Made by a program: the position numbers and the translations under genes. The notes beneath the pieces were generated by a model. That model saw only the letters and a list, made by a program, of their open reading frames with translations. It did not search any database and was not told where the DNA came from. DNA of 64,000 nt. It comes from Winogradskyella marina. GTDB taxonomy: Bacteria > Bacteroidota > Bacteroidia > Flavobacteriales > Flavobacteriaceae. Below, piece after piece: positions 2,437 to 42,491 of this stretch; positions within the stretch are counted from its first letter, which is position 1, and the number at the start of each line of letters is the position of its first letter. Location of the stretch: assembly GCF_015645385.1 (NCBI RefSeq), contig NZ_JADOET010000010.1, forward strand, positions 62,001 to 126,000. Direction: 5' to 3'.

Positions 2437-2889
2437 ATGAAAACCAAATCTACTTTATTTTGTGCTCTATTTTCTCTAATGATGAGTGTAAGTTTTGCTC
2501 AAAAAGATGAGGATTCTCAAAGTATCATTAGTGGCAAAGTAAACATCTCAAAATACCATAGTCGTGAAGACTTAAAACAGAAGAAAAAAGGAGAATTACT
2601 TGTTCTTTATGTAGAGCGAATTGAAGTTATTGTAAATATCCTTCCAAATATTGCATTTGCAACTAAACCTGGTGTTACCATGGAAAATCTTGGAATACCT
2701 GATACAAAAGATAATAGAAAAGCATTAGAAGATAATATCGATGCCTCTACCTCTTATTTTGATAGTACTATGGAGTTTCAAAAGAAGATACTTCCCTATT
2801 CTGATACTAAAGATTTAATTGCCGCGATTCTTTTTTATGAATCCACATTAAAAGCATTACATACTTACGATGATTTTAAAAAGGACTAG
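2437..2889 (+). CDS. Small exported protein of unknown function
   Basis: A 150-residue protein with a clear Sec signal peptide (residues 1-21, MSVSFAQ cleavage region). The mature part is mostly helical, with no Cys and no family I recognise. It begins with a Lys-rich segment (about residues 45-58) and continues with alternating hydrophobic and charged residues, suggesting a small helical periplasmic or surface protein. It has its own promoter (2377-2406) and terminator (2918-2954), so it is a single-gene unit, placed upstream of the T9SS-related block but not obviously part of it. Confidence 0.7.
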   Translation: MKTKSTLFCALFSLMMSVSFAQKDEDSQSIISGKVNISKYHSREDLKQKKKGELLVLYVERIEVIVNILPNIAFATKPGVTMENLGIPDTKDNRKALEDNIDASTSYFDSTMEFQKKILPYSDTKDLIAAILFYESTLKALHTYDDFKKD

Positions 2890-6079: not shown

Positions 6080-8827
6080 ATGAAAGCACATTTTCTACTT
6101 TTTATATTATGTATCTGTTCTTTACAGACATTCTACGCTCAAGAAGATGACGGCGTGGTTTCGCTTGCAATACCATCACGAAATTCTTTAACCTTTAACC
6201 GTTTTACCCAAAACCCAACATTTAGTTTTGTGAGAGAACAAACTAAATACATCAGTGTCTATAACAAAAGAGAATGGGTACAATTTGAAAATGCACCACT
6301 CACCTATTTAGCCAGTTATTCCGGACGATTTGGCGAGAATATTGGAGCCGGATTGGGACTTTTTCAACAAAATTATGGAGTATTAACCACCTATGGTGGT
6401 ATTTTGAATTTTGCATACAATGCACAATTAGGTTACGATAGCAACCTAACATTTGGGCTTAATATTGGAGCTTATAAAAGTGGTGTTAATACTGCAAACG
6501 TCATCACTAATTTCAGCGACCCTTCGCTAGAGAATGTACCAGAGAATTTCCTATTAACTATTAATCCTGGTATTAATTATGGGACTGAGTTTTTAGATTT
6601 CGGATTATCAATAAACAATTTAGCATTATACAATTTTGAAGCTTCAGAACTTATTGAAGATAACCCACAACAAAGCATTCAAGCTCATGTAATGTATACA
6701 GGTTACATGGATAGTAGAGGTTTTTTTGACGAAAGTAAATTTACAGGATTGTTACGTTCCGAGTTTCAAAAAGAAGAAACCATTTTATCTGCTGTTGCCA
6801 TGGTGACTGTGCCTAAAGGAATTTGGGCTCAAGCGGGTTATAATACACTTTACGGTGCCTCTGGAGGAGTCGGATTAAATATCACAACACAAATTGCAAT
6901 AGAATACAATTATGAAACTGCTTTTGGTGATTTAAGCAATTATGGACCTTCACATGAAATTACTTTAGCATACCGATTTAAAAATGATAATTATTATAAC
7001 TATAGCCGTGAAGATGAAGTGAGCAGTATTCTTTCATCAGACGGACGAAGAAAACGTCGTGTTACTAAACCTTCAAATTCAAGCGTAGCAAGTAGAAATG
7101 CAGCTGCTGAAAATAAAGCGAAAGCCGAAGCAGATGCAGAAGCTAAATTAGAGGCAGAACAAGAGGCTCAAGAAAAAATTGAAGCAGATAAGGAAGCTGA
7201 AAGATTAGCAATAGAATTAAAAGAACAACAAGAAGCTGAAGCACAGGCGAAGTTAATAGAGGCTCAAAAATTAAAAGACTTAGAAGAAGCTAAGGCTAAA
7301 GCCGAAAAAATTGAAGCGGATAAAAAAGCTGCGGAAAGAGCGGAAACTAGAGCAAAACTACAAGCTGAACAAAAAGCTAAGGAAGAAGCTGCTGCCCGAG
7401 CTAGACTATTAGCGGAGCAAAAAGCCGAAGAAGAAGCTGCTGCTCAAGCTAAACTATTAGCGGAACAAAAGGCTGAAGAAGAAGCTGCTGCTCAAGCTAA
7501 ACTATTAGAAGAGCAAAAAGCTGCAGAAGAAGCTGCTGCTCAAGCTAAACTATTAGCGGAGCAAAAAGCTGAAGAAGAAGCTGCTGCTCAAGCTAAACTA
7601 TTAGCAGAACAAAAAGCTGCAGAAGAAGCTGCTGCTCAAGCTAAACTATTAGCGGAGCAAAAAGCTAAAGAAGAAGCTGCTGCTCAAGCTAAACTATTAG
7701 CAGAACAAAAGGCTGAAGAAGAAGCTGCTGCTCAGGCTAAATTATTAGCAGAACAAAAAGCCGAAGAAGAAGCTGCTGCTCAAGCTAAACTATTAGCAGA
7801 ACAAAAGGCTGAAGAAGCTGCTGCTGCTCAGGCTAAATTAGTAGCGGAGCAAAAAGCTGAAGAAGAGGCTGCTGCTCAGGCTATACTATTAGCAGAACAA
7901 AAGGCTGAAGAGGAAGCTGCTCAGGTTAAAGAAAATGCGATATCAAATGCAACAGATGAACTTGCTGTTTCGATGCAGACAATAACTAAATCAACAGAAG
8001 CATCAAAAACAGTTCAGAATGAGTTATTGGAACAGTTTGATGAGATTGTTGCTATTAAAGATCAGGATCTTAAGGATATGAAAGAAGAAAATGACTTAAG
8101 CGATCAAGGAATTACTGTTCAGCCTAAGCCATTTAAAAGTGTGACAGCTGAGAACAATGCGTTAAGAGCAATTAGAACAGATTTAGATGATGTTATTAAA
8201 ACACGTACAGAGAAAATTGATGAATTAAATAAACTTTATGAAGAACGTGCTGCAATTGGTTCATTAGCTTTAGATGAAGTAACCCTGTTCTATGAAAAGG
8301 AGATTAAAAGATTAAAAGCTGAACAGTTAAAGGCTAAACAAGCAAAAGCGCAATTAGACGTAAGGTTAGAAGCTATTCAGGTCGCAACTGAATTTGAAAA
8401 GCGTAGACGAATTAAGCGTGCAGCTTTTAATAATGAAGACGATAGATATAGTCAAGGAAGAGCCAAGTTGAAAAACATAAGAGAAACCACAAAATTATCT
8501 GCAACACCTTTAAAAGCTGAAGATTTTGATTTTGGAGAAGCACAAGGTAATAGTATTAAGATATTAAAGAATATCAATCATATAGATAGTGGTTTCTATC
8601 TCATAATTGCAGTACATGGTGATGAGAAAAGTAGAGATGAGTTTTTAACTAAAGTTGTTGCATCTGGAAGAACAAATGTAGATTTCTTTCATGACGTGAA
8701 CACTAGTAAATATTATATTTATTATGATAAGGTTGATGATATCGCAAGTGCCAATAGAGCTTTAGAAGCCAAAGGTAATAGACCTTATAATGGAAAAATG
8801 TCAATAGTAAAAATAGAAAACCAATAA
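6080..8827 (+). CDS. PorP/SprF-family protein fused to Ala/Glu coiled coil and SPOR-like domain
   Basis: A 915-residue protein in three parts. Residues 1 to about 315 are a PorP/SprF outer-membrane beta-barrel-like domain with a signal peptide (LQTFYAQ cleavage) and the usual LTFNRFTQNPTFSFV and FGENIGAGLGLF motifs. Residues about 335-800 are charged helix, with a core of twelve near-identical 16-residue repeats at 425-615 (AKLLAEQKAEEEAAAQ). Residues about 832-915 resemble a SPOR domain (GFYLIIAVHGDEKSRDEF then KYYIYYDKVDD), the type that binds denuded glycan strands of peptidoglycan. Ordinary PorP/SprF proteins are about 300-330 residues. I infer a partner that secures the upstream type B cargo and reaches across the periplasm to the wall. 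Confidence 0.85.
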   Translation: MKAHFLLFILCICSLQTFYAQEDDGVVSLAIPSRNSLTFNRFTQNPTFSFVREQTKYISVYNKREWVQFENAPLTYLASYSGRFGENIGAGLGLFQQNYGVLTTYGGILNFAYNAQLGYDSNLTFGLNIGAYKSGVNTANVITNFSDPSLENVPENFLLTINPGINYGTEFLDFGLSINNLALYNFEASELIEDNPQQSIQAHVMYTGYMDSRGFFDESKFTGLLRSEFQKEETILSAVAMVTVPKGIWAQAGYNTLYGASGGVGLNITTQIAIEYNYETAFGDLSNYGPSHEITLAYRFKNDNYYNYSREDEVSSILSSDGRRKRRVTKPSNSSVASRNAAAENKAKAEADAEAKLEAEQEAQEKIEADKEAERLAIELKEQQEAEAQAKLIEAQKLKDLEEAKAKAEKIEADKKAAERAETRAKLQAEQKAKEEAAARARLLAEQKAEEEAAAQAKLLAEQKAEEEAAAQAKLLEEQKAAEEAAAQAKLLAEQKAEEEAAAQAKLLAEQKAAEEAAAQAKLLAEQKAKEEAAAQAKLLAEQKAEEEAAAQAKLLAEQKAEEEAAAQAKLLAEQKAEEAAAAQAKLVAEQKAEEEAAAQAILLAEQKAEEEAAQVKENAISNATDELAVSMQTITKSTEASKTVQNELLEQFDEIVAIKDQDLKDMKEENDLSDQGITVQPKPFKSVTAENNALRAIRTDLDDVIKTRTEKIDELNKLYEERAAIGSLALDEVTLFYEKEIKRLKAEQLKAKQAKAQLDVRLEAIQVATEFEKRRRIKRAAFNNEDDRYSQGRAKLKNIRETTKLSATPLKAEDFDFGEAQGNSIKILKNINHIDSGFYLIIAVHGDEKSRDEFLTKVVASGRTNVDFFHDVNTSKYYIYYDKVDDIASANRALEAKGNRPYNGKMSIVKIENQ
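7352..7924 (+). repeat. 48-bp in-frame tandem repeat, 12 copies, inside the PorP fusion gene
   Basis: Twelve head-to-tail units of 48 bases (the last is 45) encode the 16-residue coiled-coil repeat of the gene at 6080-8827. Copies differ mainly at synonymous third positions and at a few Glu/Ala/Lys sites. Because 48 is a multiple of 3, gain or loss of units would change coiled-coil length without shifting frame. Confidence 0.95.
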
Positions 8828-8895: not shown

Positions 8896-11800
8896 ATGAA
8901 AAAACCTACTTTTTCTAGAATAGCCATAATTGCCCTAACACTTATTTTGGGACAACTAACGTTAGCTCAAAACTATGAGCCCTTTACACCTCGATTTAAT
9001 GAGGACTTAAAAGGTGATATTGTCTTAATCGGTAATAATATTCTTGGGCCAGATAATGACCCATTTAATAATAATTCGGTATATAATCACCAAGTCGATA
9101 TGCAATATATTGATATCGATAGTGATGGCTCTACTTTCAGTTCTTCTAGTGCAGATCTAACAATTCCTAACCCAAACTGTTATAAAATCATATATGCAGG
9201 TTTATATTGGGGAGCTGTAAATCCTGGCGATGCTCCTATAACAGAAGTAAAATTTAAAGGACCAGAAGGTGGTTATCATGATATAGAAGGTACTATTATT
9301 TATGATGCAGATGGAAATACTGTAGATGGTGGAGATAGTTTTTCTTATGCAGCTTATGCCGATGTAACCTCTATAATTTCAACGTTTAGTAATGATTTAG
9401 GTACATATACAATTGCAAACGTATCTTCTGCAGAAGGTAGAACAGCGTCATATAATCCCTATAATGGTACAGGACAATCTGCTGGTTGGTCATTATTTGT
9501 AGTTTATGAAGATCCTACTTTACCAGGAAAATCAATTACTAGTTTTGATGGTTTTAGTGCTATTAGTGTTGCAGGTGGTAATCCAAATTTAGATATTCCG
9601 GTAGATGGATTTAGAACTATTCCTGCTCCCGCTCCAGTGAGAGCTAATTTTGCTTTTGCAACTTTAGAAGGAGATAGTCCTATTTTAGGTGATCGATTAC
9701 GTTTAAACGGAGTTAGTTTGTCAGCTACAGATCGCCCAATTGCAAATTTTTTCAACAGTTCCGTTACTCAGTTAGACGCTACACCTGTAAATGATAGAGT
9801 CCCAAACAGTACCAATACCTTAGGTTTTGATACAGGTGTAATGCATGTGCCAAATCCTGGAAATTCAGTTATTGCCAATGATGCCACCTCTGGAACCATT
9901 CGTTTAGAAACAAGTGGAGATACCTATTTTCCTTATTTCTTTGCTTTTGCTGTAGAAATTATAGAACCTAACATAGTGCTCACCAAAATTGTAGAGGATG
10001 ATTCAGGTAATAATATTGGTAATGAATTTGTAGGCCTTGGGTCTTCGCTTAATTATGTCATTGGTTTTCAAAATACAGGAAATGACAATGCTACAAACTT
10101 TCAAATCAGAGACATTCTGCCTGTGAATGTTATTTTTAATTATCCAGAAGATTTAGTATTACCTCCAGGAGTAACTGTTTCTAGCTATAATGCTGCCACA
10201 CGAGAACTTATTTTTAATATTGATGATTCTTTAGTAGAAGAAAATGATCCCGTTTATGAAATTCGTATTGAGGTAGAAGTTGTAGAATCTTGTAACCTAC
10301 TAATTGATGCGTGTACTAATATTATTAGTAATCAGGCTTTTGGAAGTTATAATGGGTTTTATAATCCAACTTTTTCAATTTCAGATGATCCAAGTATTAA
10401 CAATAACACAGGCTGTTTGTTATCACCTCAAGCCACAAATTTTTTAGCAGATTTAAACTGTACTTTTTCTCAAGATATTGTGTTATGTGGAGAAACTGTC
10501 GATTTAACTGCAGCAGATGGTTATGATTCTTACACTTGGTCTACAAGTCCAACCGGAACACCAGTTATTGGAAATACACAAACGATAACTGCCGATCAAA
10601 CAGGCACCTACTACTCTTTCAATTCAGCTGTAGCTCCTTGTCAATCTATTGTTCAAGAATACCATGTAGAGATTTATGGTAATAATACTTCAAACCCTGT
10701 TATACCTTATGCAGATGAAGTCGTAACGTGTCCTAATGACGGAAAATTATTGCCAAATATCTTTTTGTGTGGTGCTGAAGATTCAAGATTAATTGAAACC
10801 AACATCTCCAATTCTACGTCAGTTATATGGGAACAATTAAATGAAGGAAGTTGTTCGGCTGTTGCAGATGCAGATTGTGCAAATGAAGACGCTTCTTGTA
10901 CTTGGGATGAAGTAGGAACAGGTTCAAATTTTCTGGCTGACACAGCAGGTCAATACAGGTTAACTATTAATTATCCTGGTGGATGTTTTGTACAGTTTTA
11001 TTTCAATATTTATGAAAACATTTTAAACGCAACTGTTAATGCATCAGATATCATTTGTACCACGGATGGAAGTATTACCGTAAATGGAGTGCCTTCAGGA
11101 TATGAATATAGTTTAGATGGCACTTCTTTTCAAGATAGTAATGTGTTTTCTGTAGATACTCCTGGTATTTACACAGCTTATATCAGACAGGTTGGTGTGG
11201 CAACAAACCCTTGTGTGTTTACTGTTCCAGATGTACAAATTAGAGATCGAGAATTTACAGGTTCAACGATAGTTACACAACCCCTTTGTTATGGTGATAA
11301 AGGCACAATTTATTTAGCAGCAAACGATATAGATCCTCAATATTCTTTTGCACTGACTGAAGGTGGAAGTTTAGTGAATAGTGTTGGTCCAATTGTAGAT
11401 AACACCCATACATTTCAAAACTTAAATACAGGAACATACACGGCAACGATTACATCTGAAAATGGCTGTGTATTCTCTGAAGATATTACAATTACTGAAC
11501 CACCAGTTTTAACGGCTACTGCAGCTTTAACAAGTCCATTAAACTGTACTGATGGTGAGATTACAGTTTATCCAGTTGGTGGAACACCTCCTTATTTTTA
11601 CTTTGTTAATGGTGCAACAGAGTTTCAAACTGTACCTGAGGTCGTTGTGCCTACAGCCGGAGTTTATAACATTACTGTTATGGATTCTAATAACTGTAGC
11701 ACAGACTTAACCCTTACAGTTGATGCTATTCCTGCACCCGATTTTAATATAGATATCGTCGATATTGCTTGTGCAGACGCTAGTGATTCTGGAGTTTTAT

Positions 11801-14800
11801 CAATTGATGTCATTAACGCAAATGGCAGTAGTATTTTATATAGTATTGATGGAGGAACGACTTTCGTTAACTCAAATGTCTTTACAGGTTTACCAGTAGG
11901 AGATTATGAAGTCGTATTACAATACGCAACAGGCTCTGATGTTTGCGAAACCAGTCCACAGACGGCAACTATTAATTCTGCCACACCAATTACCGGAACT
12001 GCAGAATTAACAGCTCCTTTTACATGTACCTCAGATGGTACCATTACAGTTACGGGAGTTACAGGAGGTGATGCACCATATACCTATAGTATTGATGGTG
12101 TATCTTTTCAAAATAGTAATAGCTTTAATAATTTATCAGCAGGAACCTATACTGTAATCGTAAAAGATGCTAGTGGTTGTTCTTCGGCAATGAATGACAT
12201 TACTGTGGAAGCCTTAAATCCACCAACGGATTTAACCTTCGATAATTCACCAGTGACCTGTCCTACCAATACTTCTACAATTTCTATTACAGGAACAACA
12301 GGAGGTATTGGAATATTAGAATATCAAATTACAGCACCAGCTTCGGCAGCAACGGCTTATCAAACATCAACAGATTTTTCAGGTTTAGAGCCAGGAACGT
12401 ATACGATTCAAGTTAAAGATGAAAATGATTGTGTATATAGTGAGTCTTATACTATTGACCCTATTCCTACTCCAACCTTATCTGTTGTTTTAACGGAAGG
12501 TTTGGATTGTACAGCGGCGCCAGATGCGGTTATAACTGGAACAATTTCTGGACCTGCGCCTTACACATATTCGGTATCAATAAACGGAGCTGCTTATACA
12601 TCTTTAGGTGCAACAGGTTCTCCATTTACATATGCAACGGCAGATGCAGGAACATATCAATTTGAAATAACAGATGCTAATGGTTGTTCAGCGGAATCTT
12701 CTGTGATTACAGTAAACCCATTATCGCCACCTGCATTAAGTTTGGTTGCACAAACGCAACCTATTTTATGTCATGGTGATACAAATGGAGCTATTGAAGT
12801 TACAATAGATACGTCAGTAGGGACCCCTCCTTTCACTATTAATGTGAATAACGATACAACAGGAACTGATTATGGTACACAAACGTCTGGATTACCAGCA
12901 GGAACATATACTGTAACTGTAACAGATTCTAAAATGTGTACAGCAACTGAAAACGTGACGATTAACCAACCATATCAAATATCAATATCCCATGAAGCTA
13001 TCGATATTACTTGTGGTGCAGGTGGCGTTTCACAAGGTTCGGTCATTGTAAACTCAGTTACAGGTGGAACACCACCTTATAACTATTTTGTTACAGGTAC
13101 AAATGGTTACTCTAATTCTGAACTTAATAATATCGGTTCAACATCAGTAAGTTTTGATGTGGTAGATTTTGGTTTATATCAAATAAATGTGGTAGATGCT
13201 AACGGTTGTTCTGTTCTAGTTCAAGATGTATTGGTAGCCTCTCCTCCAACAGATTTAGATATTGATATTACTACAACTGTCGATTGTTCTACTGGTGGTG
13301 AAGCTGAAGTAAGTATAGGATCATCTCTTACTAGTGCAGGGCCATTCTTCTTTAGCATATACGAAGGTCCAGGTACGGTATATCCTACTACTGGAACATG
13401 GTTAAGTGAAGACGCTCCAGGAAGTGAGTCTGCTACATTTACAGGGTTAATGCCTGGTGTATTATATACATTTATTGTGTATGACCAATCTACAAATTGT
13501 AGTTACTACGAACCAGCTACGGTTCCAATTCCAACTAATTCAACATTAACAGCTACAGCGGTTAGCGCGAATAATATAACCTGTACAGGGAGTGCTGACG
13601 GAAATGTATCATTTACTATTAATAGTGTATATGGAAGTTCTGTTGCTGTAGATTATGAAATATTCGATTCTTTAAGTTTAACCTCAACTGGAATTACAGG
13701 TTCAGGTTCTGTTCCTGCAAATGGAGCATTAAATGTTACAGAATTAGGGCCATTACCATTTGGAAATTATTTTGTTTCTATTAGCGAAAGTTCAGGTCCA
13801 AATGCTGGTTGTGGAGTTGTAACAGTGCCTTTTAATATTACAGAATCTGCCTTTCTTTTAGAGTTAGAAGCTTCTATTGATCAGAACGCGAATTGTAATC
13901 CTAACTCAGGAATTATTAGTGCTATCGGTTCAAACGGTACACCTCCTTATCAATATCAAATTACAACAACACCCGCTGCTCCATTAGCAACAGATGCTGC
14001 TTGGGATGCTTCAAGTACATTTAATATGGATGCTGGTAGTTATTATGTGCATGTTATTGATGCTTATAACTGTATTGTTACGAGCCCGGTTCAAGTTTTA
14101 GACATGGATCCAACTCCAGTAATTTCAGCAACATTAACAAATCAATGTACTGTTGTTGAAGGTGAATATGAAATTGATGTTACATTAGACACACCTGGTT
14201 TGTCTCCTTATAGTGTAAGTATTAATGGAGGAGCATTTCAATCACAAACATTCCCTTTTACACTTTCAAATTTATATTCAGGAACACATACAATAGAAGT
14301 TCAAGATGTAAATGGTTGTGGTAATACGGTATCAATAGATGTTGTACCACCAATAAACATTACACCAGAAGTAACAACGCTACCATCTTGTAATAATGAT
14401 GATGGTGAAATTACGGTAACTGGTTCTGGAGGATCTGGATCTTATGCTTACAGCATTTTACCAAATCCAGCTTCAATAAGCTTAGCAGGAAATGTATTTT
14501 CTGGTGTGCCTTCAGGAAGCTACACCATTACTATAACAGATACTGTGACTTCTTGTACAGAAGAGGTTTCTGTAACGGTTTCTGAAGCTATACTTCCTAC
14601 ATTTACTTTAACTCCAACTGAAGTAACCTGTTTTGGGGATAACTCTGGATCCTTCGAGATAAATATTGCCAACTATTCTGGAGCGTATACGTATGAAGTA
14701 TTTGATAGTTCTGGAGCGTCAGTCACAGGAGTGGTAAACGCCAACACGTCCACCAACCCTGAAATAGTAACAGGAATGGAAGCTGGAACATTTTCTGTAC

Positions 14801-17106
14801 TTATAACAGAAACAGATATTCCTTTCTGTTCGGCAACTTCAAATGTAATTATTGCATCTCCACTAGAAGCTATGACACTTAATGTATCAGAAACTTCAGA
14901 TGTAACATGTAATGATAACGAAGGTACAATTACTGCTATTGCAACAGGTGGTTGGGGAGATTATGAATATGAATTAACGGGCGATGCTACTGTAGCTTAT
15001 TCTTCAAATGGATCATTTACAGGATTGTCAGCTGGAGATTACACCGTAAATGTTAGAGATGCCGGTGGTTGTATCGTATCTGAAGTAATAACATTAGAAA
15101 CTCCAGATCCAATAACAGCTACATTTACACCAAGCACTACAACATTATCTTGTTTTGGTGATCAGGATGCTAGTATTACTATTACAAATGTTACTGGTGG
15201 TCAAGGCACAAACTATACGTATACGTTAAATACGGTTTCACCAACACCAAGTGTTTCTGGCCCACAAACCTCTAATGTGTTTAACAACCTAGGCCCTGGA
15301 ACTTATTTTGTAAGAATTACAGACGGTTATGATTGTGAATTTTCATCAGCAAATATGGTAATTACTGAGCCAGATCCAATTGAAGCTAGCTTAGTAAGAG
15401 CATCAACCCAAACCTGTTTAACAGAATCAACATTAACATTGAGTGCAACAGGTGGAACAGGATTATATTCCTATAGTGAGAACCCTTCCTTTTCACCACT
15501 AATTGGAACGTTTACAACTTCGACAACATTTACGGTTTCAGAGGGAACGTATTCATATTATGTAAGAGATGCCAACGGATGTGTTACTAATGTATCTAAT
15601 GAAATTACAGTTGATCCATTGCCGACTTTAGAAGTGACATTAGAATCAACCAACCCTACAATTAATTGTGCTGGTGATAACAATGGTACCATCTTAGCAA
15701 CTGCTATAGGTGGATTAGGAAATTACACCTATACGTTACAAGATAATGCAGGAAACCCTGTTACTGCAACAGAAAACAGTCCAGGTTATTTCACAGAACT
15801 TTTTGCAGGTGATTATATTGTATACGTAGAAAGTGGAGATTGTACTGCTACTTCTGCTCCAATTACTATTACGGAACCAGATGCTCCACTCGATGCGTCA
15901 GTGGTTGTTAACAATGTGAGTTGTGCAGGAAGTAATAATGGTTCTATTGAAGTTACTGCGTCTGGAGGAACAGGAATCATTAAGTATGCTATTTCACCAC
16001 AATTAAATCAGTTCTTCGATATTAATACTTTCGAAAACTTAGCTCCTGATGATTACACCATCATTGTACAAGATGAATTAGGCTGTTATTTAACACTCGA
16101 TGTTACCATAACGGAACCGCAACCTGTAATCTTAAGTATTGTACCAAACTCATTAATCCCAGAAGTTTGTACAGGTGAACTTGAAGGTGAATTTAGTATT
16201 GCTATTTCAGGTGGAACATTACCATACAGTGTCAGTTTAGATGATTATGATGGTACTTACACAACAGGAAACGCTACGCAAACCGAATTTTATTTTACAA
16301 ATTTAGGCGGTGGTGATCATATTGTATTTGTAAAAGATGCTGAAGGATGTGAATCTGAATGGAATATCACGTTCCCAGAATCAGTTAGCATTTTACCAGA
16401 AGTTGTTATTGAAAATATTTGTGACAACAATATACAAGGCAATATTGTAACTGTGACTGTAGATGCTTCTATTGAAGACCCTACCCTTCTCGAATATTCT
16501 TTAAATGGTGGCCCATATCAATCTGATAATGTATTTACAAATTTACCAGAAGGTACAGGGTATTATATTGATGTAATGCATGAAAATTTATGTGTTCAAC
16601 GTACCGACTTATTCGATATTGATACCGTAGCCCCTGTAACGTTAACATTGGCTGAAGGTGGATTAAATGAATTCATAGCAACTGCCTCTGGTGGTAGAGG
16701 TGATTACCAATACACGTTGAACGGAGAAGATGTTGGTTCAGAAAACACTTACATTATTACAGAGTCTGGTTTATATACTGTAATCGTGACCGATAGTAGT
16801 GGTTGTTATGCAACTGCACAAATAGAGTTAGAATTTCAAGATATATGTATTCCAAATTGGTTTACACCAAACGGAGACGGAGAATTTGATACATGGGCAC
16901 CAGGATGTACTGAAAATTATCCAAACCTAACCTTCGATATTTTTGATAGATACGGTCGTAAAATTGCCACATACCGTGTTGGTGAAGTTTGGGATGGAAA
17001 GTATATGGGTAATGAATTACCTACTGGAGATTATTGGTTTGTTGTTCAAACGAATGACGCTTCACACGACAAAGAGTTTGTTGGACATTTTACACTTTAT
17101 AGATAA
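8896..17106 (+). CDS. Giant SprB-like repeat adhesin with T9SS type B sorting domain
   Basis: A 2736-residue cell-surface protein. Signal peptide about 1-24 (TLAQN). An N-terminal beta-rich region (about 30-350) with AGLYWG is followed by a DUF11-like module at about 358-475 (VLTKIVEDDSGN and FQNTGND) and an Ig-like segment. From about 705 to 2635 I count some 23 SprB-type repeats of about 70-100 residues, each with a G-[ST]-I-x-V, GGTPPYxY, AGTYTVxVxDxxGC pattern and usually a Cys at the end. The last 87 residues are a type B sorting domain (PNWFTPNGDGEFDTW then FDIFDRYGRK). SprB-like proteins are moved along the cell surface by the gliding motor. Whether this cell glides is not shown here. 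The gene is followed by its PorP/SprF partner. Confidence 0.92.
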   Translation: MKKPTFSRIAIIALTLILGQLTLAQNYEPFTPRFNEDLKGDIVLIGNNILGPDNDPFNNNSVYNHQVDMQYIDIDSDGSTFSSSSADLTIPNPNCYKIIYAGLYWGAVNPGDAPITEVKFKGPEGGYHDIEGTIIYDADGNTVDGGDSFSYAAYADVTSIISTFSNDLGTYTIANVSSAEGRTASYNPYNGTGQSAGWSLFVVYEDPTLPGKSITSFDGFSAISVAGGNPNLDIPVDGFRTIPAPAPVRANFAFATLEGDSPILGDRLRLNGVSLSATDRPIANFFNSSVTQLDATPVNDRVPNSTNTLGFDTGVMHVPNPGNSVIANDATSGTIRLETSGDTYFPYFFAFAVEIIEPNIVLTKIVEDDSGNNIGNEFVGLGSSLNYVIGFQNTGNDNATNFQIRDILPVNVIFNYPEDLVLPPGVTVSSYNAATRELIFNIDDSLVEENDPVYEIRIEVEVVESCNLLIDACTNIISNQAFGSYNGFYNPTFSISDDPSINNNTGCLLSPQATNFLADLNCTFSQDIVLCGETVDLTAADGYDSYTWSTSPTGTPVIGNTQTITADQTGTYYSFNSAVAPCQSIVQEYHVEIYGNNTSNPVIPYADEVVTCPNDGKLLPNIFLCGAEDSRLIETNISNSTSVIWEQLNEGSCSAVADADCANEDASCTWDEVGTGSNFLADTAGQYRLTINYPGGCFVQFYFNIYENILNATVNASDIICTTDGSITVNGVPSGYEYSLDGTSFQDSNVFSVDTPGIYTAYIRQVGVATNPCVFTVPDVQIRDREFTGSTIVTQPLCYGDKGTIYLAANDIDPQYSFALTEGGSLVNSVGPIVDNTHTFQNLNTGTYTATITSENGCVFSEDITITEPPVLTATAALTSPLNCTDGEITVYPVGGTPPYFYFVNGATEFQTVPEVVVPTAGVYNITVMDSNNCSTDLTLTVDAIPAPDFNIDIVDIACADASDSGVLSIDVINANGSSILYSIDGGTTFVNSNVFTGLPVGDYEVVLQYATGSDVCETSPQTATINSATPITGTAELTAPFTCTSDGTITVTGVTGGDAPYTYSIDGVSFQNSNSFNNLSAGTYTVIVKDASGCSSAMNDITVEALNPPTDLTFDNSPVTCPTNTSTISITGTTGGIGILEYQITAPASAATAYQTSTDFSGLEPGTYTIQVKDENDCVYSESYTIDPIPTPTLSVVLTEGLDCTAAPDAVITGTISGPAPYTYSVSINGAAYTSLGATGSPFTYATADAGTYQFEITDANGCSAESSVITVNPLSPPALSLVAQTQPILCHGDTNGAIEVTIDTSVGTPPFTINVNNDTTGTDYGTQTSGLPAGTYTVTVTDSKMCTATENVTINQPYQISISHEAIDITCGAGGVSQGSVIVNSVTGGTPPYNYFVTGTNGYSNSELNNIGSTSVSFDVVDFGLYQINVVDANGCSVLVQDVLVASPPTDLDIDITTTVDCSTGGEAEVSIGSSLTSAGPFFFSIYEGPGTVYPTTGTWLSEDAPGSESATFTGLMPGVLYTFIVYDQSTNCSYYEPATVPIPTNSTLTATAVSANNITCTGSADGNVSFTINSVYGSSVAVDYEIFDSLSLTSTGITGSGSVPANGALNVTELGPLPFGNYFVSISESSGPNAGCGVVTVPFNITESAFLLELEASIDQNANCNPNSGIISAIGSNGTPPYQYQITTTPAAPLATDAAWDASSTFNMDAGSYYVHVIDAYNCIVTSPVQVLDMDPTPVISATLTNQCTVVEGEYEIDVTLDTPGLSPYSVSINGGAFQSQTFPFTLSNLYSGTHTIEVQDVNGCGNTVSIDVVPPINITPEVTTLPSCNNDDGEITVTGSGGSGSYAYSILPNPASISLAGNVFSGVPSGSYTITITDTVTSCTEEVSVTVSEAILPTFTLTPTEVTCFGDNSGSFEINIANYSGAYTYEVFDSSGASVTGVVNANTSTNPEIVTGMEAGTFSVLITETDIPFCSATSNVIIASPLEAMTLNVSETSDVTCNDNEGTITAIATGGWGDYEYELTGDATVAYSSNGSFTGLSAGDYTVNVRDAGGCIVSEVITLETPDPITATFTPSTTTLSCFGDQDASITITNVTGGQGTNYTYTLNTVSPTPSVSGPQTSNVFNNLGPGTYFVRITDGYDCEFSSANMVITEPDPIEASLVRASTQTCLTESTLTLSATGGTGLYSYSENPSFSPLIGTFTTSTTFTVSEGTYSYYVRDANGCVTNVSNEITVDPLPTLEVTLESTNPTINCAGDNNGTILATAIGGLGNYTYTLQDNAGNPVTATENSPGYFTELFAGDYIVYVESGDCTATSAPITITEPDAPLDASVVVNNVSCAGSNNGSIEVTASGGTGIIKYAISPQLNQFFDINTFENLAPDDYTIIVQDELGCYLTLDVTITEPQPVILSIVPNSLIPEVCTGELEGEFSIAISGGTLPYSVSLDDYDGTYTTGNATQTEFYFTNLGGGDHIVFVKDAEGCESEWNITFPESVSILPEVVIENICDNNIQGNIVTVTVDASIEDPTLLEYSLNGGPYQSDNVFTNLPEGTGYYIDVMHENLCVQRTDLFDIDTVAPVTLTLAEGGLNEFIATASGGRGDYQYTLNGEDVGSENTYIITESGLYTVIVTDSSGCYATAQIELEFQDICIPNWFTPNGDGEFDTWAPGCTENYPNLTFDIFDRYGRKIATYRVGEVWDGKYMGNELPTGDYWFVVQTNDASHDKEFVGHFTLYR

Positions 17107-17134: not shown

Positions 17135-18118
17135 ATGAAAAAAATCACCCTATATATTCTTTTTTTGGTCTTCGCACAAGGTTATGGCCAAGAATTAAAC
17201 TTACCAGTATTTACACAATATTTAGCAGATAATGACTTTGTTATTTCGCCAACGTATGCCGGAATTGGAGATAATTTAAAAATTAGAGCAAACGGATTAA
17301 CACAATGGGTAGGAATAAAAAATGCACCAGATAATCAATCTGTATATGCTGACTTTAGGATTTCTAATCGTACAGGTATTGGTATTTCTGCTTACAACGA
17401 TAAAAATGGAAACACACGCCAAAAAGGAGTTAAGTTTTCTTTTGCGCACCATTTAACATTAGATTATAAGACAAAACAATTTTTATCTTTCGGATTATCT
17501 TACAACATCAATAGTTTTAGAATTGACATTGAGAATTTTAATACCACCTATGATATTCCAATTTTAGATCCATCAATTACAGATGATAGATCGCAATCTA
17601 ATAATAATTTTGATGCTGGTATTTTGTACCGATGGAAAGCGTTTTACTTAAGCTTTAATGCCAATAATATTTTGAATAAAGATATCGATGACCATTTAGG
17701 TATTGAGCCAAGTAAACTTTTAAATTATCAATTATATACTGGTCTTGTTATAAAAAGTAACAATAACAAAGATGTAGAATTTGAGCCATCCTTATTTGTG
17801 CAAATGTTTGATAGTGACAATCGATCTAGTACAGATATCAATTTTAAATACCGAAAATTTAATAGAAAAGGAGATTATTACTTTGTAGGTGGTTCTTATC
17901 GTTTTCTTAACGATCAATTCTTTAAGCCTTTAAACGTCGGTCCAATAGGAGGTATTACTTTTAATCAATTCTTTTTTGCGTATTCCTACCAATTAACAAT
18001 TAATGATTTATCTGGTTTTAATTCCGGAACACACATGGTAACCATTGGGTTAGACTTTTTACAAGGTGCTAGTAACTGTGCTTGTACAAAAGGAACAAGC
18101 CAGAGTTATTATAGGTAA
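17135..18118 (+). CDS. PorP/SprF family type IX secretion partner protein
   Basis: A 327-residue outer-membrane protein of the usual PorP/SprF length. Signal peptide about 1-18 (AQGYGQ). It then shows the family's opening LPVFTQYLADNDFVISPTYAG, the TGIGISAYNDKNG hairpin and alternating beta strands up to GTHMVTIGLDF. The start is 28 bases after the adhesin stop, so the pair reads as sprB-sprF order. In characterised flavobacteria a SprF-family protein is needed for secretion or attachment of the adjacent type B cargo. I infer the same partnership with the 2736-residue adhesin. The tail holds a Cys-x-Cys (NCACTKG) that could be capped by disulfide or metal, which I cannot resolve. Confidence 0.92.
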   Translation: MKKITLYILFLVFAQGYGQELNLPVFTQYLADNDFVISPTYAGIGDNLKIRANGLTQWVGIKNAPDNQSVYADFRISNRTGIGISAYNDKNGNTRQKGVKFSFAHHLTLDYKTKQFLSFGLSYNINSFRIDIENFNTTYDIPILDPSITDDRSQSNNNFDAGILYRWKAFYLSFNANNILNKDIDDHLGIEPSKLLNYQLYTGLVIKSNNNKDVEFEPSLFVQMFDSDNRSSTDINFKYRKFNRKGDYYFVGGSYRFLNDQFFKPLNVGPIGGITFNQFFFAYSYQLTINDLSGFNSGTHMVTIGLDFLQGASNCACTKGTSQSYYR

Positions 18119-24429: not shown

Positions 24430-26742
24430 TTATTTTTTAATAAATTTTTGTGTCATAGAACTCGTATTGGTAGATAATTTTATAAAATAAATCCCACTTT
24501 GATAGTTTGATATATTCAAAATATGAGTGTCATTACTTCTTAAATCCCCATTACTAATTTTCTTACCTAAAGTATCAAATATTTCAAAACTTACATCTTC
24601 ATTTAAATTATTCAAATCAATATTTAAGTTGTTATTTACAGGATTAGGATATAAATTAATTAAACCATCTAAACTAAATTCATTAACGCTTAACGGGTCT
24701 TGTACATTGAATGTTACTGATTCAGAAGCCGTAAATTCACCACCTGAAATTATCTCATTATCATTTTCATCTCTTAAGCTATATGAGCCAGTACCATATG
24801 AACAACAAATACCATCACCTTCTTCGTCGTAAATGGTAAACGTATAACATTCATTAAAACTCGGAATGGTAATAATTTCTTCGTATGATGTAGGATTATT
24901 GGAATCAAAATAAACTCCACTATCCACAATTACCCCCGAACTATTAACAAGGTCCCATGAAGTTTCATAACCATAATTATCCGTTAAAAGGTCAAAAACG
25001 ATTGTATTTGTTGCATATGCAGATGATACATCAAAATTAACGGCAAATGTGTTATTGGATGTGTTTTCATCTGTGGTTCCATTTGGGTTTGAAACGTTAA
25101 TAGTAAATATGTGATTACTTGCACTTAAATTAGAATAGACAGGTGTTGCTACCACAACACTTTCTCCATTAAGTAAATTACCTGTCCAGTTTACTGTAGT
25201 ACTAGTTTCAGAATCTATAAAGTATGAAACATCTGCAGATGTTAAAGTTAAATCTCCTGAGTTTATAAGTGTTACTTGAGGTGTAAAATCTTCTCCACAT
25301 AATTCTGTTGGGATACCAGCCCCAGCCGTAACTCGCGCATCATTATCATACGTTTGTAATTGAGGATACACGTCTACGAAGTTAAGACCAGTGTTCCCAG
25401 GGTCTAACCAATCTTTAAGTCGTGATGAAGCTGTAGGACCATAATCCCAAGCAACACCAAAGCGTCCATATAAATCAAAACCTCCATTATCATTTGTGCC
25501 TGAACATGAAGCAGTTCCGCCAGAAAGCATACCTATTAAATGACCATTTTCATTAAACAAACCAGATCCAGATGAACCTCCTTCAGTAACACCTAATTCC
25601 CAATCATTTATTCCCCACATTTGTGTTGTAGGATTGCCATTAAAAAAGGTCGATGTTCTAATCGCACCTTCATCGTTTCTAGATACTTTTTGAATATCAC
25701 CACTTGGATGATGAATACCAAAGGTAACAGAAGGAACTTCCGTTGTAGATTTATTCCAACCTGCCCAAACTACATCTGGGTTACTGTCAAAAAAACTGGC
25801 ATCTGTAATTTCAACCAATTCCATATCAGATTGAGAATTTTGAGCTCTAACTATAGAACCACTAACCGTTTGATTAAATGTTCCATTAGTACTATTAGTA
25901 AATGTACCACAAGATGGGTTTGGGCTTCTCCAGTTAAAACGAAATGCCCAGCTACCTTCTCCTCCACTACAGTGATTTGCGGTTAAAAAATAAGGAGTTC
26001 CATCGTTGTTCGTATTATTTACAAGAGTACCAGAACAAAAACTAGCACCTCCAGCAAGCAACAGTCCACCAGCTTTTTTTACTTCTTCTTTTCTAGTATC
26101 TATATCAAATGGATCTGAAGCTGGTGTAATATCACAATCCACATCGTGATTACAAGCACCTGAATCATTTAGCGCTTTTTGATACGTTTCTGCAGTTCGG
26201 TAACCATGAACAACAGAGCCAACCGTAATTTTAGCGTTACCAGAAACATTTGCAGGCTGATAATACTCTATATAAGCTACATTACCTTTAACTAACCATG
26301 TTCCTAAAACTTCTTCAGGATTATTGTTGTGATGTGTAAAAGGTCTTAATAAATCCGTTTTATCACTATTATATACATAGAGTTTTGCTCCTTCGGGAAT
26401 TTTAAATACATCGAACATAAAATTTAATGAATGTGCCCCTTTAGAGGTGTAAGCCATTCTCCAAATCTGGTCTCCGTTTTCTAAAGTTGTCCACTCACCT
26501 ACATCATTGAAATTATGATCTACATAAATATCATGTCCAAATCTCCAAGGAATAGATTTATTTTGGTCATTAATTTTATCTTCTTCTTGTAATTTTTTCA
26601 AATCGAAAGTAGGAAGCGTAAAAGGGGTTAAATCAGTTAACGAATTTTGACTCCAACTAGGTGGTTTAATGTCTTCTGGAAACTGTTGTGCAAAAGAAAA
26701 TGAACTGACAAATAAGAATGCAAAAAGTAGTTTTAATTTCAT
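24430..26742 (-). CDS. Lysyl-endopeptidase-like trypsin-fold protease with T9SS type A sorting domain
   Basis: A 770-residue secreted serine protease. Signal peptide 1-18 (SFSFAQ). A propeptide-like N-terminal beta domain (about 60-200) precedes the protease, whose catalytic residues appear as His257 (TANHC), Asp306 (SQSDMELVEI) and Ser391 (GGSSGSG). The paired Cys and these motifs are like Achromobacter protease I (MEROPS S1E/S1D type), which cuts after Lys. A CARDB-like module (about 480-575) and a further beta domain with CCSYGTG follow. The last about 70 residues are a type A T9SS sorting domain (INLYPNPVNN then IYFIKLSTN). It is expected to be released or attached outside the cell and to digest protein. 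Confidence 0.92.
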   Translation of the reverse strand: MKLKLLFAFLFVSSFSFAQQFPEDIKPPSWSQNSLTDLTPFTLPTFDLKKLQEEDKINDQNKSIPWRFGHDIYVDHNFNDVGEWTTLENGDQIWRMAYTSKGAHSLNFMFDVFKIPEGAKLYVYNSDKTDLLRPFTHHNNNPEEVLGTWLVKGNVAYIEYYQPANVSGNAKITVGSVVHGYRTAETYQKALNDSGACNHDVDCDITPASDPFDIDTRKEEVKKAGGLLLAGGASFCSGTLVNNTNNDGTPYFLTANHCSGGEGSWAFRFNWRSPNPSCGTFTNSTNGTFNQTVSGSIVRAQNSQSDMELVEITDASFFDSNPDVVWAGWNKSTTEVPSVTFGIHHPSGDIQKVSRNDEGAIRTSTFFNGNPTTQMWGINDWELGVTEGGSSGSGLFNENGHLIGMLSGGTASCSGTNDNGGFDLYGRFGVAWDYGPTASSRLKDWLDPGNTGLNFVDVYPQLQTYDNDARVTAGAGIPTELCGEDFTPQVTLINSGDLTLTSADVSYFIDSETSTTVNWTGNLLNGESVVVATPVYSNLSASNHIFTINVSNPNGTTDENTSNNTFAVNFDVSSAYATNTIVFDLLTDNYGYETSWDLVNSSGVIVDSGVYFDSNNPTSYEEIITIPSFNECYTFTIYDEEGDGICCSYGTGSYSLRDENDNEIISGGEFTASESVTFNVQDPLSVNEFSLDGLINLYPNPVNNNLNIDLNNLNEDVSFEIFDTLGKKISNGDLRSNDTHILNISNYQSGIYFIKLSTNTSSMTQKFIKK

Positions 26743-39946: not shown

Positions 39947-40352
39947 AAATTAACAACTTACTTAAAACTAATTTTATTTAAACAAAAATTCTAGTTTCAA
40001 TTTTTTATAATGAGGGAAAATAATTAATTGATTAATAGCACTTTATTTTGTTGATGCAAATATATAGACTTCCTTAAATTGTACATAGAAAATTCGATGT
40101 AAGAACTTATAAAATTGATTTAGGTATGAAAAATGCAAATTATATCTACCAATCGCACTTTGGTAATATATTTCTTACGTACTCAATTAATGACACACAA
40201 AGTATAGTTTAGTATTCAATTAAAGATATAAATTACGAGGCAACACTAAGTGAAGTCTAAGGTTCACTAGTCGTTTGTTGTGTTTCACTCATTGCAACTA
40301 TTTAAAACGTCACTTCCATCATAGTTTTGGGTTACAACTAAACTCAAACACA
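39947..40352. other. Intergenic region before the MuiA-like gene
   Basis: About 400 AT-rich bases. No credible ORF, RNA gene or exact TAnnTTTG box was found. The frame that opens upstream of the MuiA-like gene at 40275 is only a non-ATG extension. Confidence 0.5.
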
Positions 40353-42491
40353 ATGACAACCCAACAAAACATTTTAAAAACAGCCTTAGTGTTTCTATTT
40401 ATACTAGGAACACAATGCATTTATGCTTTCCAGCAATCTAGTGACATCAATACAGTAACCGTTTATTTAGATGGTGCTGAAATTAACCGAGAATCTTCAG
40501 TAAAACTAAATGCTGGCAAGTCCGAAATTACATTCAATGGCTTATCACCGCATATTGAAGAAAGTAGTATTCAAATATCAGGTTTACAAGATGCATCTAT
40601 CCTTTCTATTAATTATGGCATCAATTATTTATCAAAGCAAAAACAGAACGATTCCATTTCAACCTTACAAAATCAATTGGAAACTTTGGATGCTAAGATT
40701 CAACAACAGCACCATTTAATTGCTGGTTATAACGAAGAATTAAGTTTGATACAAAGCAATAAAAAATTGGGCAATGCAACTGAAGTTGTAAGTTTAGAAA
40801 AACTAAAATCGTTTGCTACGTATTATAGAACACGGATTACAGAGTTAAAGACCTTAACAAATAGCTCTAATTATGAAATTGAAAAACATCGCACTACTAA
40901 AGCAGATATAAATAAGCAGTTAGCAGAATTAAATGTTGATGAAAAAGTGCAAACTGGTGAGATTAAGTTAAAACTGAATAGTGACATCGCAACCACATTA
41001 GATTTAAAACTAAAATACAATATAAAAAATGCAGGTTGGTTTCCTATTTACGATCTAAAAGCTGATAAAATTAATAGTCCGTTAAGTTTGGAATATAAAG
41101 CGCATGTCTTTCAAAATTCGGGTTGCGATTGGACAGATGTTAACTTAGTATTATCCACAAGTGATCCTAATACTAATAACGAAAAACCTATTGTAAACCC
41201 TAAATATTTAAACTTTATAAGTGAATACAGTAATTACCAATCGCAACGTGCTACCAGAAATTATAATTATAAGTACAATCCATTGGTGAAACATGTTTCA
41301 GGTGTGGTAACATCATCTTCTGATGGCTTACCAATACCTGGAGTTAATGTAATTGAAAAAGGAACTTCTAATGGTATACAAACTGATTTTGATGGACGCT
41401 ATTCGATAAAAACGACAATTGGTAATAGTATAGCATATTCATATGTTGGTATGAAAACTGAAGAATTACCGATTCATTCTAGCATTATGAATGTGGTTTT
41501 AGATGAAGATAACAACCGATTAGATGAAGTTGTAGCTGTTGGGTATGGTACAGCCTCTAAAGAATATCAATCATTGAGAGGTGAAGTGGCTGGTGTCAAT
41601 GTTGTTAAAGGTAACGGACAACCTGGTACAAACTCAACTATTAAAATGAGAGGGTTTAGTTCACTAAGTGGTAGTATTCAACCTTTATATATTGTTGATG
41701 GAGCTCCGTATTCAGGAGATGTAAGTCAGCTTAATCCAGATAATATTTCAGAAATATCAGTACTTAAAGATGCTGCTACAACAAGTATTTACGGAAGTCG
41801 TGGAGCCAACGGAGTAGTCTTAATTACGTTAAAAGACGGCTCTGAAAGCAACATAAACGATTTAGGAATTACGGTTGAAACTGGCATTACCAACACCAGA
41901 TTCGAAATTAATAAAAAATACAACATTCCATCTGATGGAGATATTTCGGTAATAGAAATTGATAAGTTCAGTGTGCCTGCGACATACAATTATTTCGCTG
42001 CACCAATTTTAAACGAAAATGTATTCTTAACTGCTAAAATTGGAAATTGGGAACAGTACAATCTATTACCAGCAGAAGCAAATGTATATTTTGAAGGGAG
42101 TTATTCTGGCAAAACAAACATTAATCCTAGTGCAACAACAGATAGTTTAACAGTTTCGCTTGGAGTAGATCCGAATATTATTGTAAAACGCAAACAACTC
42201 AATGACTTTAAAAAGACCACATTTATTGGAAATAATAAAGTGATTCAAAAAGCTTTTGAAATAGAAATTAAAAACAACAAAAAATCTGATATTCAGTTAA
42301 CTATATTAGATCGCATTCCGAAAAGTCAGCATAAAACAATTAAAATAGATGATATAGAAACCGGAAATTCCAACTACGATGAAGACAAAGGTATCTTAAA
42401 ATGGACCCTAAATTTAAAATCGAGTGCCACTGCAAATGTTAAACATTCATACGCCGTAAAATTTCCGAAAGAGAAACGCGTTAACTTATAG
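40353..42491 (+). CDS. MuiA-like DUF4140/DUF4139 protein with inserted carboxypeptidase-regulatory and TonB-plug domains
   Basis: 712 residues from ATG 40353 (an upstream extension to 40275 would bury the signal peptide). Signal peptide about 1-27 (CIYAFQQ). DUF4140 at about 30-130 (VTVYLDGAEINRESSVKL), a coiled segment, then the first part of DUF4139 (LKYNIKNAGWFPIYDLKAD to the GCDWTDVNLVLSTSDPN strand). At about 313-500 a foreign block is inserted: a carboxypeptidase-regulatory-like fold (HVSGVVTSSSDGLPIPGVNV) and a shortened TonB-receptor plug (VVAVGYGT, YIVDGAPYSG, SVLKDAATTSIYGSRGANGV). DUF4139 then resumes to the end (FFAAPILNENVFL-type strands, KSDIQLTILDRIP). No beta barrel follows the plug. 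Function of the combination is unknown. Confidence 0.85.
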   Translation: MTTQQNILKTALVFLFILGTQCIYAFQQSSDINTVTVYLDGAEINRESSVKLNAGKSEITFNGLSPHIEESSIQISGLQDASILSINYGINYLSKQKQNDSISTLQNQLETLDAKIQQQHHLIAGYNEELSLIQSNKKLGNATEVVSLEKLKSFATYYRTRITELKTLTNSSNYEIEKHRTTKADINKQLAELNVDEKVQTGEIKLKLNSDIATTLDLKLKYNIKNAGWFPIYDLKADKINSPLSLEYKAHVFQNSGCDWTDVNLVLSTSDPNTNNEKPIVNPKYLNFISEYSNYQSQRATRNYNYKYNPLVKHVSGVVTSSSDGLPIPGVNVIEKGTSNGIQTDFDGRYSIKTTIGNSIAYSYVGMKTEELPIHSSIMNVVLDEDNNRLDEVVAVGYGTASKEYQSLRGEVAGVNVVKGNGQPGTNSTIKMRGFSSLSGSIQPLYIVDGAPYSGDVSQLNPDNISEISVLKDAATTSIYGSRGANGVVLITLKDGSESNINDLGITVETGITNTRFEINKKYNIPSDGDISVIEIDKFSVPATYNYFAAPILNENVFLTAKIGNWEQYNLLPAEANVYFEGSYSGKTNINPSATTDSLTVSLGVDPNIIVKRKQLNDFKKTTFIGNNKVIQKAFEIEIKNNKKSDIQLTILDRIPKSQHKTIKIDDIETGNSNYDEDKGILKWTLNLKSSATANVKHSYAVKFPKEKRVNL

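Follow-up and report, generated by a model that had tools for sequence, protein, structure and literature searches.

An orthologue of the gliding gene sprD in Winogradskyella marina encodes a PorP/SprF-type barrel, a long helical rod and a predicted SPOR-fold head

Among the closest described relatives of the protein considered here are PorP-like outer-membrane carriers, for which different couplings to the periplasm have been reported. In SprF, a twin-cysteine motif of the periplasmic tail forms a disulfide bond with GldK, which is given as the way in which SprB is pulled along (PMC12635249). In Porphyromonas gingivalis, PorE is described as joining PorP to peptidoglycan, and in Flavobacterium johnsoniae six porP-like genes adjoin porE-like genes, the cargos of which were postulated to be static (PMC9143113); another report counts the PorE-like operons of F. 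johnsoniae as five (PMC12618676). SprC and SprD are stated to aid the function of SprB (PMC5879114), the SprD of F. johnsoniae is reported to be needed for normal gliding (PMC5879114, PMC11885536), and a lolA1 mutant retains SprD in its outer membrane at 0.05 of the wild-type level (PMC11885536). Here we describe a stretch of 64,000 nucleotides (nt) from W. marina (contig NZ_JADOET010000010.1, positions 62,001 to 126,000; hereafter the window), in which positions 6080-8827 (+) form one uninterrupted ATG open reading frame (ORF) of 915 amino acids (aa), with no overlooked stop, in line with an earlier note on this DNA.

This protein is, with near certainty, the orthologue of SprD, encoded by a known gliding gene of the remFG-sprCDBF operon, because the operon order is kept and both of its ends are homologous to F. 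johnsoniae SprD. The genes in the window follow each other as remF-remG-sprC-sprD-sprB-sprF do in the published operon of F. psychrophilum (PMC9723704), and the order in F. johnsoniae is identical. Of 249 Flavobacterium genomes, one contains an exact match to a primer given in the literature for the sprD 3' end of F. johnsoniae (PMC9870892), and the F. johnsoniae SprD of 1588 aa combines a PF11751 match (E 1.3e-42) with a rod rich in Ala, Lys, Glu and Asp and a head found by our head profile (E 1.8e-54). Scanning with residues 621-915 returned 45 loci from Winogradskyella, Psychroserpens, Flavobacterium, Gelidibacter, Algibacter, a Tenacibaculum metagenome-assembled genome and others, with 47-88% identity (best segment) across several genera; sprC lies directly upstream of sprD in 41 of these loci, the sprD ORFs of the remaining four beginning at the locus edge, and a SprB match is present in 44. 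A plasmid search gave no match. The earlier note did not recognise the known gene sprD in this conserved operon; its proposal of a barrel, a repeat helix and a SPOR-like end in one chain agrees with profiles, Tandem Repeats Finder and AlphaFold2. Rhodes et al. (2011) reportedly described the sprCDBF operon of F. johnsoniae, and sprD is said to have been a named gliding gene since 2011. As far as the literature searched reaches, the new parts are therefore the architecture of SprD, the fold of its head, the absence of cysteines and the tail classes of the carriers, and not the gene itself. Neither a description of the architecture or mechanism of SprD nor a paper joining PorP with a SPOR domain in the sense of SprD was met in that literature, and Rhodes et al. 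(2011), which lay outside the search, may cover part of either. The parts of the protein are as follows.

6080..8827 (+): sprD orthologue, 915 aa (ORF, synteny, orthology)
6080..6139 (+): probable signal peptide, residues 1-20 (sequence; cleavage site inferred)
6080..6979 (+): PorP/SprF barrel domain, residues 1-300 (TIGR03519, PF11751, AlphaFold2)
7094..7936 (+): Ala/Glu/Lys-rich predicted helical rod, residues 339-619 (composition, AlphaFold2)
7351..7921 (+): tandem array, 48 bp x 11.9, 16 residues each (Tandem Repeats Finder)
7958..8488 (+): second predicted helical segment, conserved and non-repetitive, residues 627-803 (conservation, AlphaFold2)
8591..8818 (+): predicted SPOR-fold head, residues 838-913 (AlphaFold2, structural neighbours, stepwise homology)

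The N-terminal PorP/SprF partner, already proposed in the earlier note, lies far above the cut-offs of both profiles: TIGR03519 matches residues 1-300 (E 1.7e-50, 172.2 bits against a cut-off of 90.55) and PF11751 residues 34-298 (E 2.8e-46, 158.7 bits against 22.3). AlphaFold2 predicts an outer-membrane barrel with 15 strands at residues 57-299, in a whole-protein model with a predicted local distance difference test score (pLDDT) of 68.7 and a predicted template modelling score of 0.37.

Behind the barrel, residues 335-640 contain no Gly, Pro or aromatic residue and consist of 33% Ala, 22% Glu and 13% Lys. Helices are predicted by AlphaFold2 at residues 339-469, 514-619, 627-675, 689-724, 733-781 and 786-803, with low confidence in the repeats (pLDDT <50 in stretches) and a break of the helix at 470-513. 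The twelve 16-residue repeats that had been read at residues 425-615 were recovered as the tandem array (88% matches, score 862), whereas the description of this region as a coiled coil did not hold: hydrophobic residues account for 13%, repeats of 16 or 17 residues are not heptads and the best a/d occupancy is 0.5, so that a canonical coiled coil was rejected and we speak of a helix only. Pairs of (E/D)->(K/R) at i,i+4 are not enriched in the rod of the window (10 versus 10.9 in the shuffle) and are enriched in that of F. johnsoniae (78 versus 37.4); the reverse-order pairs, 32 and 147, respectively, were counted without a shuffle of their own, and for this reason we do not claim a single-alpha-helix. 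A Fibrinogen_BP match at residues 322-618 (E 0.0014, 17.5 bits against 50) was rejected as a low-complexity cross-match. Among 39 full-length relatives the linker ranges from 346 to 1102 residues; most marine genera have a repeat period of 16 and most Flavobacterium one of 17, with the Ala/charged composition retained, the copy number of the array varies, and two relatives lack an array altogether. At the helix rise of 0.15 nm per residue, the rod as one helix would measure 46 nm in the window (about 306 residues) and 146 nm in F. johnsoniae (about 976 residues), and the periplasm is about 20-30 nm wide; being longer than this width, the rod, if it is one helix, must follow the envelope or turn back on itself instead of crossing the periplasm.

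For the C-terminal end, AlphaFold2 modelling of the isolated 111 residues gave a predicted beta-alpha-beta-beta-alpha-beta domain at residues 838-913, the five models having mean pLDDT values of 91.8, 90.5, 67.8, 60.9 and 51.4. SPOR domains are five of its best six structural neighbours in VIA-align, and judging from these models the head very probably has a SPOR fold. The SPOR-like C-terminus of the earlier note thus stands as regards predicted fold and neighbours, and does not as regards the Pfam SPOR model. The head is highly conserved, with 20 of 111 columns invariant in 46 sequences and a mean column identity of 75%. The Pfam SPOR model accepts seven of the 16 related PorP fusions that were tested, and the sister domains compare with the canonical SPOR domains of the family at a probability of 15.6 (E 0.0017). 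Sequence searches of NCBIfam and the PDB with the window protein or its head returned no SPOR match, and a PDB search with the domain of locus L114 returned no match. Other assignments were considered and rejected: ILEI, matched by 27 of the 46 members (best E 0.0021), did not form a consistent family, nor did ten further weak Pfam families with one to seven members each, the two matches of the window copy lying far below cut-off.

SprD-type domains also occur in other proteins. A PorE-like protein with PD40, CarboxypepD_reg and OmpA domains carries an extra N-terminal SprD-type SPOR-like domain (L121:2779-5193, -), and a protein with four LysM domains and a helical-looking middle ends in a SprD-type head (L126:3428-5419, +), in a genome whose sprD region is Flavobacterium-like. 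In L115, L116 and L117 a C-terminal SprD-type SPOR-like domain stands behind an apparent HU-CCDC81/SPOR protein (Pfam on L115); their counterpart in the window genome, L139, has no such added domain. Four tandem genes with a SprD-type domain, one of them edge-cut and at least the first identified by Pfam as a PorP fusion, are found at L123:4885-10001 (-), with no type-B-looking gene in the stretch covered. In L114, L118, L120, L122, L124 and L125 the SprD counterpart has two or three SPOR-like domains (the second copy of L125 being weak), and in most of these loci it still lies between a gene of type B appearance and a long one.

The neighbourhood of sprD and the twin-cysteine motif of the nearby sprF are listed below.

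2437..2889 (+): remF-like gene, 150 aa (position; name from the published operon order, PMC9723704)
3171..4493 (+): remG-like gene, 440 aa (position; name from the published operon order, PMC9723704)
4615..6078 (+): sprC orthologue, type B C-terminal domain (CTD) substrate, 487 aa (CHU_C E 1.8e-12; 1 nt before sprD)
8896..17106 (+): sprB orthologue, SprB repeats and type B CTD, 2736 aa (PF13573 E 9.6e-58, TIGR04131 E 2.7e-24)
17135..18118 (+): sprF orthologue, PorP/SprF, 327 aa (TIGR03519 E 3.2e-58)
18077..18085 (+): CAC twin-cysteine motif, SprF residues 315-317 (sequence; function as given in PMC12635249)

As the earlier note had stated, the PorP/SprF gene adjoins a type B CTD gene, since sprC ends 1 nt upstream; SprC is over the cut-off of CHU_C and, with 34.5 bits, 0.5 bit under the cut-off of 35 for TIGR04131. 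For SprB and Fjoh_3952 the shuttle is reported to be encoded directly downstream of the cargo (PMC12618676). Gene order suggests that the operon encodes two pairs of cargo and carrier, SprC-SprD and SprB-SprF; by analogy with the tested pairs of the SprF/SprB type SprD is likely to be the carrier of SprC. Among 15 SPOR-fused carriers of our survey (see below), nine have a type-B-like gene ending directly upstream and a long gene starting downstream, and six do not, the neighbours being called from C-terminal sequence and gene size.

SprD differs from SprF in its cysteines. It has only two, residues 11 and 13, both inside the probable signal peptide, and no twin-cysteine (CXC) tail, as no Cys follows residue 13; an SprF-type disulfide to the track is therefore impossible. 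The same holds for 38 of the 39 full-length relatives, which lack Cys beyond residue 26, and in the remaining one (L062, Cys at 41 and 43) the start was called about 30 residues too early. The twin-cysteine motif of SprF, NCACT in the window, is kept in 26 of 26 orthologues. Nor does SprD match at E <= 1 an OmpA-like domain, the peptidoglycan-binding part of PorE (TPR-PD40-CRD-OmpA).

PorP-like carriers sort by tail class, a pattern that was first noted on the window genome and then applied to others, and that was not met in the literature searched. The window genome encodes eight PorP-like proteins. Behind each of the five that terminate in PR[FY]F comes a PorE-like OmpA/PD40 gene; of the other three, two carry CXC and one, SprD, the fused head. 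The PR[FY]F C-terminus (own-genome loci within L002-L007) may act as a peptide on which PorE-like proteins dock. In F. johnsoniae, where tails were sought as [PR]R[FYW][FYW] in the last eight residues, a PorE-like gene follows 6 of 6 PR[FY]F carriers, 0 of 2 CXC, 0 of 1 SPOR-fused and 0 of 2 other carriers. The survey covered every PF11751 match (108) in 16 additional genomes of the family; its own PorP model recovered 104 ORFs, 103 of them distinct, and the rest were dropped. The tail pattern was loosened to R[FYWL][FYWL] in the last six residues, so that the PR[FY]F-like class includes a few rows ending PRFY, PRLF, VRFF or SRFF, and PorE-like neighbours were accepted within 300 nt (within 3000 nt in the window genome and F. 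johnsoniae). There, PorE-like genes follow 45 of 54 PR[FY]F-like, 0 of 23 CXC, 0 of 15 SPOR-fused and 0 of 11 other carriers, which brings the total of 122 carriers to 56 of 65, 0 of 27, 0 of 17 and 0 of 13, respectively. The sprD and sprF of the window stood outside the classifier, with neighbours taken from the window annotation, and a wider look (3500 nt, E 1e-3) added no PorE-like neighbour for the 49 non-PR carriers. Where a PorE-like neighbour is missing, as for nine PR[FY]F-like carriers of the survey, its place is empty or taken by other genes; in L164, L167 and L171 the ORFs that follow the PR[FY]F carriers exceed 1200 residues and are not PorE-like. A Fisher value of 1.5e-20 for the link between tail and PorE treats related genes as independent and is descriptive only. 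In a quick-search tree of 131 carriers (ten extra fusions added, one of 132 rows dropped; long branches flagged, L160 above all), all 26 SPOR-fused carriers form one side of one branch (Shimodaira-Hasegawa-like approximate likelihood ratio 99), the simplest reading of which is that the SPOR fusion arose once.

Published cargo behaviour can be set beside these classes. SprB and Fjoh_4750 are reported as mobile, a CTD fusion of Fjoh_1123 gave moving foci in 3% of cells with most foci static, and Fjoh_3952, which has a PorE-like neighbour, was static (PMC12618676). Gene order makes it probable that L158, an orphan carrier with a CXC tail, is Fjoh_1677 and shuttles Fjoh_1123, and that Fjoh_4750 is served by L160 (tail CFGC, classed as other); if so, twin cysteines go with mobile and PR[FY]F/PorE with static cargo in the published cases. 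A tentative extension would be that type B carriers of Flavobacteriaceae form clades whose periplasmic tails set the fate of the cargo, with CXC leading to the moving track, PR[FY]F to a PorE-like wall anchor and a static cargo, and SprD to rod and SPOR-fold head, as a second, non-covalent track ride or brake and possibly a reversible foot between track and wall.

From these data we favour a mechanism in which the SprD barrel would take SprC from the type 9 translocon and hold it at the cell surface, and the C-terminus, which by analogy with SprF would lie on the periplasmic side, would enter the periplasm as a long cysteine-free helical arm ending in the SPOR-fold head. One non-covalent chain would thus replace both the twin-cysteine link of SprF to GldK and a separate PorE-like protein, and the head would most likely contact the glycan of peptidoglycan. 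The wall as the partner of the head is suggested by the SPOR fold, by the lack of PorE-like neighbours and by the recurrence of the domain beside OmpA (L121) and LysM (L126), and peptidoglycan as its ligand has about an even chance in our estimate; the explanation as a whole, a SprC carrier with a non-covalent arm whose head most likely sits on peptidoglycan, we hold to be evenly balanced against all others taken together. A static tether to the wall is a plausible proposal.

A series of observations weighs against this mechanism. Adjacency is the sole ground for pairing SprC with SprD, and the SprC of F. johnsoniae lies below the CHU_C cut-off (21.3 against 27 bits). As to the head, three of the five AlphaFold2 models have a mean pLDDT below 70, every VIA-align Z is below 8 and all Foldseek E-values exceed 0.3; Foldseek alone did not single out SPOR, its best SPOR row being DedD at rank 7 (probability 0.44, E 0.56). 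Pfam SPOR (PF05036) had no match in the whole protein at E <= 1 or in the 46 heads at E <= 10, and profile comparison of the head with the canonical SPOR domains of the family was weak (probability 2.1, E 0.023). In RlpA, the Gln Q270 is reported to contact glycan (PMC6895207); this position is I, V or T, and that of F274 (Y, F or H in other copies) is His, in 46 of 46 SprD heads, a point qualified by the fact that Gln is not diagnostic, since of two Pfam-level SPOR proteins of the same genome L140 has it and L139 does not. The link between tail and PorE is tested by just two phylogenetically independent pairs, which gives no power; for this reason the association is a stable property of clades and not the outcome of many independent events. 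Finally, PMC12635249 states, with reference to a D.Phil. thesis, that SprC travels along the gliding track, which speaks against a static tether because a carrier fixed to the wall could not move; if SprC is mobile and the head of wall type, either the head binds the track or its contact permits motion.

The first of these two outcomes leads to the chief competitor of a wall contact, namely that the head binds a moving-track protein (GldJ, GldK, GldN or a factor on it) and SprD rides the track non-covalently. The position of sprD inside the sprB operon, the lack of a Cys for an SprF-type disulfide and the strong conservation of the head, with its invariant His where RlpA has Phe, would all fit such a ride, but six of the 15 SPOR-fused carriers of the survey lie outside sprCDB-like operons, the domain is found again next to OmpA or LysM domains in proteins that bind the wall, and multirail structures are described as present in each spr mutant (PMC9870892), so that SprD is no essential part of multirails; we regard the track as possible but clearly the less probable partner. 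It is improbable that the rod is the working part, with rods bundling along the envelope into an in-plane scaffold or leash for the SprC and SprB carriers and the head capping or positioning them. Its length of 46 nm to 146 nm as one helix, the absence of Gly, Pro and aromatics in the window, the composition kept across the shift from 16 to 17 residues, and parallel periplasmic filaments seen by cryo-tomography, their nature unassigned (PMC9870892), agree with this, whereas the pLDDT below 50 in repeat stretches, the 13% of hydrophobics, which excludes a canonical coiled coil, and the conservation at the ends of the protein rather than in the rod do not.

The earlier note had made the repeat number a ruler that fixes the radial distance between outer membrane and wall. 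An exact array with varying copy number does exist, but the threefold variation of the linker among orthologues (346-1102 residues) and rods of 46-146 nm that exceed the width of the periplasm render this very unlikely. Hardly credible at all is an ordinary PorP/SprF protein with a functionless low-complexity tail: the repeats are indeed of low complexity and fast-changing, yet residues 621-915 are conserved over the 45 loci together with the synteny.

A carrier barrel with rod and SPOR-fold head would give SprD a concrete and testable job. It also exposes a conflict, a wall-type domain without the cysteines of SprF on the one hand and a cargo reported as mobile on the other, according to which either a wall-binding fold was turned into a track coupling or motion can go together with a wall contact. 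From the tail classes it may furthermore be predicted, by a simple rule read from sequence, whether a surface adhesin of these bacteria is mobile or fixed.

Elsewhere in the window, a DUF4140/DUF4139 protein (40275-42491, +) has a carboxypeptidase-regulatory-like and TonB-plug-like stretch inside its DUF4139 match, and a protein of 770 aa (24430-26742, -) carries a type 9 secretion C-terminal sorting tail (PF18962) with no other Pfam match at E 1e-6.

Compared with known systems, SprD shares with SprF the PorP/SprF barrel adjoining a type B CTD gene, and differs in having an arm of 600 residues without mature Cys instead of a short CXC tail bonded to GldK (PMC12635249). With PorP-PorE of P. 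gingivalis and the F. johnsoniae pairs (PMC9143113) it has in common that a carrier barrel is coupled to a periplasmic domain which is presumed to extend to peptidoglycan; these are two proteins with an OmpA-type wall domain, unlike the one chain with a predicted SPOR-fold head in SprD, and the likeness is one of analogy only. The SPOR domains of RlpA, DamX, DedD and CwlC (PF05036) resemble the head in predicted fold and strand order, and sister fusions pass their Pfam model, whereas the window head lies outside it and has I/V/T and His in place of the contact Gln and Phe of RlpA. The rod is reminiscent of domain II of TolA, a long Ala/Lys/Glu periplasmic helix of an inner-membrane protein. 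The closest counterpart is F. johnsoniae SprD itself, whose rod of about 976 residues is built of A/K/E/D, compared with about 306 residues with 16-residue A/E/K repeats here, and which agrees with the W. marina protein in operon position, PorP barrel, cysteine-free rod and a head ending in GKMxIVK.

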